Source of the DNA: Limnochorda sp. LNt
GTDB taxonomy: Bacteria > Bacillota > Limnochordia > Limnochordales > Geochordaceae
Reading direction: 5' to 3'
NCBI RefSeq assembly: GCF_035593265.1
Contig: NZ_CP141614.1
Location: forward strand, 1,674,001-1,738,000
DNA length: 64,000 nt
The position numbers and the translations under genes were made by a program. This document shows, in pieces, positions 52,042-55,744 of the stretch. The notes beneath the pieces were generated by a model. The model was not told the DNA's origin and searched no databases. It saw nothing but the letters and a program-made list of their open reading frames with translations. Each line of letters starts with the position of its first letter. Position 1 is the stretch's first letter.

Positions 52042-52584
52042 TCATCGCCCGGCGTTGCCGTCGCCTTGCCCCTTGGCCATGCGAGCGGCCCGCCCCGAGC
52101 CCACGTGGGCCTCCACGCGGTTGGCTCCCTCATCCCGCAGCACCTGGGAGGCCTCCTCCAGGCGGTCGGAGCCAGTCTGCACCACAGCCAGCATCTTGCC
52201 CGCCTTGAGGTCCTCCTCGATGGCACGACCGCGGTCCTCGGGGATGCCCAGGTCGAGGAGACCGCCGGCCACGCCTCCCGTCACGGCTCCGCCCAGGGTG
52301 GCCGCCAGCGGGCCCGCCGCCACCACCGGCCCCACCCCGGGGATGGTCAGGGCTCCGATGCCGGCCAGCAGCCCGGCCAGCCCCCCCAGGGTGCCGCCCC
52401 AGGTGACCCCCTCCCCGACGTCCACGCCGGCCTCCGCGTCGTCCCGGCCCCCCGCGGCCCCTCGCCTCTGCTGGCCGCGAGCCAGCACCGAGATCTCGTT
52501 CTCGCGGAAGCCGCGCTGGCGCAGGCTGCGCACCGCCTGCTCGCACCGGTCGCGCGTGTCAAAGACGCCAATGACCGTTGCCAC
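52042..52584 (-). CDS. General stress protein, YflT/DUF1269-like
   Basis: The 180-residue protein begins with a ferredoxin-like fold V-I-G-V-F-D-T-R-D-R-C-E-Q-A-V typical of heat-induced stress protein YflT. A central glycine/alanine-rich hydrophobic stretch (about 62-112) looks membrane-associating or glycine-zipper-like. A second alpha/beta half follows (A-V-V-Q-T-G, E-E-A-S-Q-V-L-R) and a polar tail. Its start overlaps the 3' end of the ymxH-like gene by 26 bases. Function unknown beyond stress association of the family. Confidence 0.8.
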   Translation of the reverse strand: MATVIGVFDTRDRCEQAVRSLRQRGFRENEISVLARGQQRRGAAGGRDDAEAGVDVGEGVTWGGTLGGLAGLLAGIGALTIPGVGPVVAAGPLAATLGGAVTGGVAGGLLDLGIPEDRGRAIEEDLKAGKMLAVVQTGSDRLEEASQVLRDEGANRVEAHVGSGRAARMAKGQGDGNAGR

Positions 52585-52900
52585 CTTCGACCGACTCCCC
52601 TCTCACCAGGCGCCGTGATGCGCTCGCCCTTAGTCTCTCCGGGGCCGGCCTGGATATGCCCTCGGCAGGGGAGCCGGTGCCGAGGTCGACGACGATCACC
52701 TCGCGACCGACTTTGACCACCCGCTCCCAGGGGATCACCATCTCCGAACGCCCCATCCAGCCCCGCCGCACCGGGAGGATGAGCGCCTCCACGTGGCCGT
52801 CGCGCAGATCGACCAGGAGGTCGGCATCCCGCAACGGCCCCCAGCGGACCCCCTGCGACAGGTCCACGATCTCCTTGCCGATCAGCTCGCTCATCAACAT
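52559..52900 (-). CDS. YlmC/YmxH family PRC-barrel sporulation protein
   Basis: The 113-residue protein has a PRC-barrel-like core (1-75): M-S-E-L-I-G-K-E-I-V-D-L, D-A-D-L-L-V-D and the V-I-P-W-E-R-V-V-K-V-G strand. It matches YlmC/YmxH proteins, which are typical of spore-formers; ymxH lies between the M16 peptidase gene and dpaA in Bacillus, nearly the same context as here. The last 40 residues are a polar extension. The second ATG (52894) is an alternative start. Function unknown. Confidence 0.85.
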   Translation of the reverse strand: MLMSELIGKEIVDLSQGVRWGPLRDADLLVDLRDGHVEALILPVRRGWMGRSEMVIPWERVVKVGREVIVVDLGTGSPAEGISRPAPERLRASASRRLVRGESVEGGNGHWRL

Positions 52901-52920: not shown

Positions 52921-54405
52921 CTATGCCGTCTCCCAGGCCAGCATGATCAGCACCGGCCAGGGCCCGGGGACGAAGACCTCGGGCCTGCCCTCGTCCCATC
53001 GCCCCACCCGCACGCCCAGGGTGGCGCCCCCGCCGACGGGCCACCCCGCCTCGCCGTAGAGGTGCGGCTCGCCGCCGCCCCGCCGCCACTTGAGCACCAG
53101 GCGCCACCCTCGGGCGGGCCATGCGCCCCACGCCGGCTCCGGCGACCACCCGCACTCGAGCCGGACGGTCTCGAGGGAAGGCCAGGCGGTGGCCGCCACA
53201 CGCCACGGCCCCCACGCGGTCCATCCGCTCCACGAAGCCGCGGGCCCCTCCACCTCGACGGCGGCCCCCGCACCCCCGATGCGGTACGCCAGGCTGGCGA
53301 CGCCCAGCAGCGCCATCTCGTCGTCGTCGAGCTCCAGACCCGCGCCGGCGTCCAGTCGTCCGATGCCGGCCGTCCAGGTACCCCCGGCTGCCAGTCGCCC
53401 TCGGACCCACCGGCCGTCCAGCCGCCGGCCGACCTCGCCCTCCACCCAGCGACCCGCCGCGTTGGCCGTGCGCGGCCGCGACCACCGGCCCTGCAGCGTC
53501 ACCCGGTCCCGGGCCGGCGCGTCGTCGCCCCACAGGGGCGAGTCGAAGGAGGGGCTGACCGCGCTGGCCTCCAGGCGCCACGCGGGCCGACGCCCGAGAC
53601 CCCGGGCTCGCAGCCACAGGGCCCACCCATCCTCGACATCCAACGACGCGTCCTCACGCCGGGCCCGCTGGGAGACCCCCAGGCGAGCGGTCCACTCGGT
53701 GCCGGGAGGTCCGATCCACCCCGTGCCCAGCAAGAGGGCCGCCTCCACCTGCCGGGCCTCGATGGGAGGCCGCTCGGCGAAGAGCAGCCGCTGGTCGCCG
53801 GTGTCGGAAGCCACAGCCTGGAGCTGGGTGCGCCCCAGCTGGAGGCCGAGGGCCCATGCCTCTCCCTGGAGCTGGCGGTTGTGGGTGTACCAGAGCGGCA
53901 GGCCCGTGCCGTGGAGCAACGCGAAGGCCCGGTCCTCCCAGTCGAGCCGTATCCCGCTCACCCGGCTGACCGGGCCGTACACCGACCCGTCCACCAGCCT
54001 CCACGGGCCGGGCAGGCCGGCATAGGGACGCCCGTGGGCCCACCGCGCCGAGACGAGGAGGTCGCCCCTCTCCCATCCCACCGCGACGGCGTGGCCGGGC
54101 CAGTCGACCGGGGCACGGGCGCCGACGGGGACACTGCCCGTCGCGGCATCGTGGGCCTGCAGGCGCCAGGCCCCCGCCTCACCGGCGGGGACCCTCATCT
54201 CCAGCGCCCACGAGCCGGCCTCCGCTTGCTCCACCCACCCGGCCCGCAACCCGGCCGAAAGCCGGTTCGACTCCGCCGCCCTTGCCGTCTCCCAGCGGCT
54301 CCCCGTCCAGCCGCCGGGCACGGCGAGGCCGCAGATCGTTAGTGTTACTAACTTCCCGACCCAACGCGAACGCGCAGCCCGCCTTGCCTGGCCGATGGCC
54401 CGCAC
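52921..54405 (-). CDS. Predicted exported beta-strand-rich protein (possible outer-membrane barrel)
   Basis: The protein of about 494 residues was not recognised. It has an arginine-rich start, a hydrophobic signal-like stretch (V-T-L-T-I-C-G-L-A-V) and a possible cleavage site near residue 40. The rest consists of many short segments of alternating polar and hydrophobic residues with W, G and R at turns (for example W-A-L-E-M-R-V, A-V-A-V-G-W-E, L-V-V-like strands), ending V-L-I-M-L-A-W-E-T-A. This is the pattern of a membrane beta-barrel. There are no helices that could span a membrane apart from the signal. The GTG start is tentative. It stands between the M16 peptidase and the ymxH-like gene, where Bacillus has nothing. 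Confidence 0.6.
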   Translation of the reverse strand: MRAIGQARRAARSRWVGKLVTLTICGLAVPGGWTGSRWETARAAESNRLSAGLRAGWVEQAEAGSWALEMRVPAGEAGAWRLQAHDAATGSVPVGARAPVDWPGHAVAVGWERGDLLVSARWAHGRPYAGLPGPWRLVDGSVYGPVSRVSGIRLDWEDRAFALLHGTGLPLWYTHNRQLQGEAWALGLQLGRTQLQAVASDTGDQRLLFAERPPIEARQVEAALLLGTGWIGPPGTEWTARLGVSQRARREDASLDVEDGWALWLRARGLGRRPAWRLEASAVSPSFDSPLWGDDAPARDRVTLQGRWSRPRTANAAGRWVEGEVGRRLDGRWVRGRLAAGGTWTAGIGRLDAGAGLELDDDEMALLGVASLAYRIGGAGAAVEVEGPAASWSGWTAWGPWRVAATAWPSLETVRLECGWSPEPAWGAWPARGWRLVLKWRRGGGEPHLYGEAGWPVGGGATLGVRVGRWDEGRPEVFVPGPWPVLIMLAWETA

Positions 54406-54478: not shown

Positions 54479-55744
54479 TCAGCCGGCGGCCGCGAGGCGC
54501 CGCCGGGTCTTCCACGGCACCGGGCCGACCGCGGCGTAGGCGTACGCGTCGGGTACGAACAGCCGCGCCGCCAGCCGGTGCACCTGCTCGCACCGAACCG
54601 ACTCGATGCGCGCGATGAGCTCATCGGGCGCGAGGTAGGGCTCCCCCGACAGCTCGGCCCGGGCCAGGCGGTTGGCACGGTAGCTCATGCTCTCCATGCT
54701 GAGCAGGATGGAGCCCTTGAGGTGCTCCTGCGCGCGGCGCAGCTCCGCCTCGGTGATGCCCGATGCGGCCAGGGCCGCCAGCTGCTGCTCCACCAGCTCC
54801 AGCACGGCCGGGGCCCGGTCGGGGCTCGCGCCCGCGTAGACGGTGAAGTAGCCCGCGTCGGCGAAGGCGGTGTGGTACGAGTAGGTCGAGTAGACCCAGC
54901 CCCGCTCCTCGCGCAGCTCCTGGAAGAGTCGCGAGCTGACCCCGCCACCCAGCACCGTATCCAGGATCAGCATGGTCCACTTGTCGGGGCTGTTGGCGCG
55001 GAGGCCGGGTGCGGTGAGGCAGAGATGCGCCTGCTCGGTCTTGCGGCTGCGCACCAGCCATCGATAGTCGGCCTGCACGGGCGCCCCCCGCTGCGGCGCC
55101 TCCCCGGCCGCCAGGCCGCCGAAGTGGCATGCGATCCGCTCCACCAGCTCGTCGTGGTCCACCTTGCCGGCGGCCGCCACCACCAGCCGGCGCCCCGTGT
55201 AGTGGCGACGCACGAACGCCTGCAGGCGCTCCCGCGTCAAGGCCTGGACCGACTCCCGCGTGCCCAGCACGGCGCGCCCGGCCGGATGCCGCCCCAGGTA
55301 GGCTCGAGCCGCCAGATCGTGGATGAGCTCGTCGGGGGTATCTTCGTACATCCCGATCTCCTCGACGATGACGCCCTGCTCCTTGGCGACGTCGGCGGGG
55401 TCCATCCGGGAGCCCAGCAGCATGTCGGCCAGCAAGTCGACGGCCTCCGGCACGTGCTCGCCCAGCACCCGCGCGTAGTAGCAGGTCTGCTCCTTGGTCG
55501 TGAAGGCGTTGAGCTGGCCCCCGATGGCGTCGATGCGCTCGGCGATCTCCCGGGCGCTGAGCCGCTCGGTGCCCTTGAACATCATGTGCTCGATGAAGTG
55601 GCAGATGCCCTGCTCTTCGGGCCCCTCGTCACGGGATCCCACGTCGACCCAGATGCTCAGGGCCGTCGAGCGCAGGTCGTCCACCGATTCGGTGACGATG
55701 CGCACCCCGTTGTCGAGCACCGTCTTGCGTATCGTCGATGGCAA
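54479..55744 (-). CDS. M16 family zinc metallopeptidase (MlpA/YmxG-like)
   Basis: The 421-residue protein has the inverted zinc motif H49-F-I-E52-H53 and a downstream glutamate ligand region (E-E-I-G-M-Y-E), followed by a second, inactive M16 half with the R/Y pair in the G-G-V-S-S-R-L-F and Y-S-Y-H region. It resembles the processing-peptidase-like YmxG/MlpA proteins. The start is TTG with GGGGAGG upstream. It keeps the Bacillus order ylxY-mlpA-ymxH. A role in peptide turnover is inferred. Confidence 0.93.
   Translation of the reverse strand: MPSTIRKTVLDNGVRIVTESVDDLRSTALSIWVDVGSRDEGPEEQGICHFIEHMMFKGTERLSAREIAERIDAIGGQLNAFTTKEQTCYYARVLGEHVPEAVDLLADMLLGSRMDPADVAKEQGVIVEEIGMYEDTPDELIHDLAARAYLGRHPAGRAVLGTRESVQALTRERLQAFVRRHYTGRRLVVAAAGKVDHDELVERIACHFGGLAAGEAPQRGAPVQADYRWLVRSRKTEQAHLCLTAPGLRANSPDKWTMLILDTVLGGGVSSRLFQELREERGWVYSTYSYHTAFADAGYFTVYAGASPDRAPAVLELVEQQLAALAASGITEAELRRAQEHLKGSILLSMESMSYRANRLARAELSGEPYLAPDELIARIESVRCEQVHRLAARLFVPDAYAYAAVGPVPWKTRRRLAAAG

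Follow-up and report, generated by a model that had tools for sequence, protein, structure and literature searches.

Limnochorda sp. LNt encodes, within a 64,000-nucleotide stretch of its genome (the window; contig NZ_CP141614.1, positions 1,674,001 to 1,738,000), a protein here called X, which appears to belong to an unnamed, single-copy family of large outer-membrane barrel proteins unmatched in the named families. Limnochordia are one of the three diderm lineages of the Firmicutes, and to our knowledge little has been learned of the proteins that populate their outer membrane. The predicted fold of a relative makes it very probable that X is an outer-membrane beta-barrel, and it may well act as a channel in vegetative cells. 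The locus comprises the following features:

54479..55744, minus strand: M16 peptidase (MlpA/YmxG-like), upstream of X (PF00675, PF05193)
52921..54405, minus strand: X, a predicted large outer-membrane beta-barrel, exported, 494 aa (fold read from the relative L138 and from the C-terminal part of X's own model)
54277..54405, minus strand: putative signal peptide of X, residues 1–43, ARA-AES (from sequence; helix 3–24 in a low-confidence model; start codon uncertain)
53980..54036, minus strand: predicted conserved surface loop 1 of X (AHGRPYAGLPGPWRLVDGS), from alignments, its side by strand parity; equivalent to H.TS.DLFRL after strand 5 in relatives
53503..53556, minus strand: predicted conserved surface loop 2 of X (SPSFDSPLWGDDAPARDR), from alignments and strand parity; equivalent to PGF.SLLAK.NRYTPNR after strand 13 in relatives
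52972..53004, minus strand: predicted conserved surface loop 3 of X (GRWDEGRPEVF), from alignments and strand parity; equivalent to G.YD.GNL.A.F after strand 25 in relatives
52559..52900, minus strand: YlmC/YmxH PRC-barrel sporulation protein (TIGR02888, 64.7 bits; PF05239), beginning 20 nt past the stop codon of X
52042..52584, minus strand: YflT-like protein, downstream of YlmC (PF11181; alignment A2)

On the minus strand, the frame of X is uninterrupted between its GTG (54405) and its TAG (52921), and its codon-position GC (0.76/0.63/0.90) has the pattern of a coding frame. Its true start is uncertain because the frame stays open upstream of the GTG, to 54678, and the sole purine-rich ribosome site, GGGAG, immediately abuts that codon. 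At the N-terminus a basic stretch is followed by a hydrophobic region (LVTLTICGLAV) and an AxA site (ARA-AES), which plausibly form a signal peptide; the model of L138, a relative from the same class, has a helix at residues 4–22. Beyond the N-terminus, the maximum Kyte-Doolittle value in 19-residue windows is 1.42, below that of a typical transmembrane helix. The first-pass annotation had described just such a protein, about 494 residues long with a signal-like N-terminus and no other transmembrane helix, and the sporulation gene block in which it placed the protein is also there: the M16 peptidase gene lies upstream and, downstream, those for YlmC/YmxH, the YflT-like protein, DapB, DpaA, DpaB, Asd and LysC (the names from DapB to LysC come from sequence comparison with loci of the class and from reading rather than from a family scan).

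Searches with X, with family members and with family profiles against Pfam, NCBIfam and PDB sequences returned nothing above chance, the single stray match being OmpG at E 0.047. A pairwise search found X only in its own family, f1, that is, in three other genomes, at the same place and with 37–42% identity; class-wide detection needed a profile. When the corresponding place was read in other class genomes, using the YflT-like protein as locus marker (56–90% identity to the first A2 sequence across the class), it held in most of them an exported, beta-rich protein of about 410–530 aa. These proteins align over their full length and share common motifs and an invariant C-terminal D-x-G; the invariant residues D471 and G473 of X both lie within surface loop 3. 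A profile of 33 members detected X in about 58 of the 73 Limnochordia genomes. It matched 59, from which we left out G009 (E 7e-6, long frames off the locus), whose M16-YlmC locus lacks X and whose weak profile matches lie elsewhere. A chance frame is ruled out by the homologues that the three other f1 genomes carry at this position and by those that the profile finds across the class. In a phylum sample of 398 genomes, profile matches were confined to members of the class (none in about 380 others); a search of 12 genomes outside the class also gave no match, although this search was weak and held no positive control. X is single-copy, with one locus per genome (seeming second matches are fragments), and each family with at least two members is monophyletic in the X tree.

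Two variations of the locus were seen. The gene between those for M16 and X encodes a dimeric-type dUTPase in some families and a trimeric one in others, and is absent in the window's family. In genome G016, X, ylmC and yflT are relocated together (locus L094, C9:64000-73000), with the M16 gene at C9:31487.

We measured the beta pattern of X as the mean two-residue hydrophobic moment, compared for each protein with shuffles of its own sequence. The alternating strands that had been claimed from the sequence are clear in this measure: X has a z of 5.75, in the range of the same genome's BamA (2.97) and LptD-like (6.5) barrels, and seven cytosolic neighbours from the window lie between -1.5 and 0.8. 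The strands at the C-terminus of X that are modelled with confidence alternate at 3.54, against 1.67 when shuffled (reached by 0 of 2,000 shuffles). A C-terminal aromatic residue is the usual, though not obligatory, ending (beta signal) of outer-membrane proteins. The last residue is F, W or Y in 29 of the 33 X members compared; family f1, including window X, lacks the aromatic and has the endings LAWETA, WRFA and RGQV.

AlphaFold2 modelled L138 with a pLDDT of 91.4 and a pTM of 0.77, as a signal helix followed by an amphipathic up-and-down meander with an even number of predicted strands, 26. Window X, modelled with nearly the same alignment, reached a pLDDT of 49.9 and was confident solely at residues 372–494, the last 120 or so, which are beta; thus, that window X itself forms a barrel is inferred from homology. 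Several features of the L138 model are those of a membrane barrel: (i) strand residues alternate at 2.96, against 1.22 +- 0.18 when shuffled; (ii) turns after even strands (the periplasmic side) have 2–4 residues, mean 2.6, and loops after odd strands (the outer side) average 7.7; (iii) all three loops of at least 17 residues are on the odd, outer side, and the conserved motifs sit there; and (iv) conserved Arg and Lys residues (R247, R268, R325, R347, R359 and K363) face the lumen. The modelled chain, some 390 residues, is all barrel, with no separate plug or periplasmic domain. The best Foldseek matches of this model in the PDB are all outer-membrane barrels (PapC, FimD, TonB-dependent receptors, LptD and Occ). 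Because no single PDB barrel reaches a high TM-score (0.28–0.52 of the query), the strand number and closure of the barrel are predictions. In VIA-align the PapC usher pore came first, with Z 18.1 (336 residues, 4.5 A), and the OprD/Occ porins, AlgE and Veillonella OmpM1 scored Z 15–17. The first-pass annotation had proposed an outer-membrane barrel and named a soluble beta-propeller or beta-helix as the outcome that would speak against it. No such soluble fold appeared, and the L138 model with its matches, the C-terminal aromatics, the one-sided long loops and the assembly genes of the host leave us with high confidence in a barrel.

Such a protein presupposes a diderm cell, as had also been pointed out, and the other outcome named as speaking against it, a genome without any outer-membrane assembly gene, did not occur either. 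A cluster in the window genome (G000:C1:258000-277000) holds genes for Omp85/BamA with POTRA domains, OmpH, TamB and LptC (TIGR04409, score above cut-off), and a weak LptD-like gene. The 792-aa LptD-like protein (L058:13320-15698, on G000:C1) matches no Pfam model and has weak NCBIfam LptD matches alone; it is possibly a divergent LptD. Across the class, BamA is found in 71 of the 73 genomes. That Limnochordia are diderm was already known, from electron micrographs showing an outer membrane in two Geochordaceae strains and from the reported presence of an outer-membrane gene cluster in each of the 46 Limnochordia genomes that had been surveyed before (both PMC11456536).

What would such a barrel do? 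X would be synthesised with its signal peptide, exported by Sec and inserted into the outer membrane by the cell's BamA, to form a barrel of about 26 strands in some 390 residues, with short periplasmic turns of 2–4 residues and no plug. The three long conserved surface loops would probably fold over or into the pore mouth, where they would gate the channel or make it selective, and the pore would pass a bulky or anionic solute in vegetative cells. Membrane location, channel activity, selectivity and gating are all things that we infer. We found no substrate, partner or co-occurring pathway for X, and the whole of the evidence for a channel is the fold and the conserved lumen charges. A single-copy, constitutively useful vegetative channel with gating or selective loops is the best-supported reading, though about as likely to be wrong as right.

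The main alternative is that X serves as the barrel component of a dedicated machine for export or assembly, like LptD (for lipopolysaccharide), GfcD (for lipid-anchored polysaccharide) or an usher, with a very wide pore that either opens laterally or has a partner inside it. It is the main one because 24–26 strands, as in LptD, MtrB and the ushers, are unusual among simple porins; that usher pores are the best structural matches, and that X is machine-like in being single-copy, syntenic and vertically inherited, also speak for it. However, X lacks a periplasmic jellyroll, a plug and usher domains, a separate LptD-like gene is already present in the genome, the loci read show no partner gene linked to X, and about 14 class genomes exist without X. 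Profile comparison of X with the LptD-like protein (hhalign probability 0.3%), BamA (likewise under 1%) and M16 gave nothing. We consider a machine of this kind possible but doubtful.

Possible control elements precede X in several relatives. A sigmaA-like promoter (TTGACA-like, 16–18 nt spacer, TATAAT-like, extended TG), rare in shuffles, lies directly before X in f2, f9, f13 and the f15 locus L095; no sigmaA promoter stands out upstream of window X. A leader hairpin precedes X in f13, f8, f14 and f15, and in f13 and f15 L095 the promoter comes ahead of it:

L138:4347-4432, L092:3601-3690, L096:3470-3555 and 13 others: leader hairpin, 16 loci (alignment A6)

In the predicted outer stem, upstream sequence pairs with the start-codon region; the ribosome site is paired in the inner stem, and the hairpin is followed by a U-run. 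Pairing is kept in 94.8% of pair cells across the 16 sequences, and 15 double changes occur, against 6.1 when shuffled and 1–3 when slid. The 3' arm is constrained by also being coding, yet its changes have counterparts in the 5' arm, which is non-coding. Folded one at a time, the two f13 leaders reach z -3.1 and -4.1. We do not claim the hairpin for f2 overall because only L042, of three folded leaders, beats shuffles. The leader of window X folds no better than shuffles (z -0.84), the leader model R1 matches neither the window nor any f1, f2 or f9 locus, and Rfam gave no match for four leader-bearing loci. The f9 leader differs (L107, L108, L109, L110, L106, L050 and L048): its extended promoter is followed by a terminator-like hairpin (GCCCG...CGGGCTTTTTGTC) and then by a ribosome-site hairpin.

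The leader's invariant AGGGA and the ribosome-site AAGGA look like CsrA sites. CsrA is found in 65 of the 73 class genomes; since it is nearly universal, its presence is neither for nor against a regulatory role, and reading of the leader by CsrA is a lead only. The fullest version of the export alternative, that X is a plug-less 26-strand translocon serving an as yet undescribed export route found only in Limnochordia, and that the leader hairpin, hiding the ribosome site and start and ending in a U-run, sets its synthesis in many members, seems to us unlikely. If true, the composition of the outer membrane would be under a new form of RNA control through the hairpin, possibly with CsrA as its reader.

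Does X serve sporulation? It lies directly 5' of ylmC, with a gap of 0–118 nt, in nearly all class loci, and the pair stays joined in G016 though away from the M16 gene. In C. perfringens, ylmC is sporulation-specific and depends on Spo0A and sigmaE, and it is reported so in B. subtilis (PMC9332280). These facts favour a sporulation or germination protein that works with YlmC, for example in converting the spore membrane to an outer membrane. X and the sporulation genes, however, part in both directions (some of the genomes compared are drafts; G054 is 98% complete). X is retained in G054 and G062 (f15) and in G060 (f16), all without SpoIVA and YlmC; their loci (L095, L202 and L203, respectively) run from X to DapB with no ylmC, yflT, dpaA or dpaB between, consistent with loss of sporulation. 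Conversely, X is missing from f4, f6, f10, f12 and several f8 genomes, sporulating lineages that keep SpoIVA (and YlmC where read or tested). The promoter before X in f2, f9, f13 and f15 L095 is, moreover, of housekeeping type. Thus, X is not a dedicated sporulation protein, and a part in sporulation or germination alongside YlmC is decidedly improbable. The first-pass description of X as lying inside a sporulation gene block therefore stands for its location, next to ylmC, but not for its function. Since relatives that lost the neighbouring sporulation genes kept X, its role is probably an ordinary one at the cell surface, as the vegetative channel would be.

Among sporulating lineages, X is cleanly missing beside ylmC at f4 L051, L052 and L057, at L206 (G028) and at L056 (G017); two of these lineages belong to a genus in which another species keeps X. 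The window genome has a second YlmC/YmxH paralogue (G000:C1:1441208-1441429).

Two further alternatives fare worse. A sheath of MtrB/PioB type around an outer-membrane electron conduit would suit the 26 strands and the structural match to the Mtr complex (Z 14.6, 301 residues, 4.8 A), but we noticed no multiheme cytochrome gene among the neighbours of X that were read, and we think it very improbable. A soluble exported beta-propeller, beta-helix or spore-coat protein, suggested by the missing C-terminal aromatic and poor model of window X, is scarcely credible against the high-confidence meander of L138, whose best matches are all outer-membrane barrels and which has lipid/lumen alternation and its loops on one side.

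The family, single-copy, at one locus and class-wide, is a defined target for localisation, knock-out and structural work, and a marker for tracing the evolution of the outer membrane beside sporulation genes. Its natural losses, of ylmC where X stays and of X where ylmC stays, allow a test of the link that has been suggested between sporulation and the outer membrane, and in the case of X they argue against it.

How does X compare with known barrels? The ushers PapC and FimD are large barrels of similar strand number and, in PapC, the best VIA-align match, but they have a plug and N- and C-terminal domains, and no chaperone-usher genes were seen near X. As a candidate, the fimbrial usher was rejected: no Pfam match, and L138 is all barrel without plug or terminal domains. 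LptD shares with X a single copy and 26 strands (predicted for X) and is among the Foldseek matches, but X lacks an LptA-like jellyroll and profile similarity; membership of the LptD family was rejected, there being no Pfam or NCBIfam match, no N-terminal jellyroll/OstA and an hhalign value of 0.3% to the genome's own LptD-like protein. The GfcD-type barrel of group 4 capsules enters the comparison by description, through the literature on 26-stranded barrels (PMC11494523), but X has no Pfam match to it and no capsule operon was seen at the X locus. OprD/Occ porins and AlgE are, like X as predicted, plain barrels with surface loops, but have 18 strands, longer loops and no sequence similarity to X. 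Their lumen carries basic residues. OmpM is a smaller, trimeric barrel. It has an SLH tether, and was rejected as an identity for X, none of whose scanned members has an SLH match. Nevertheless, OmpM of Veillonella, a tether and porin in that diderm Firmicute (PMC10628300), is, like X as predicted, an outer-membrane barrel of a diderm Firmicute and aligns structurally with the L138 model (Z about 15).
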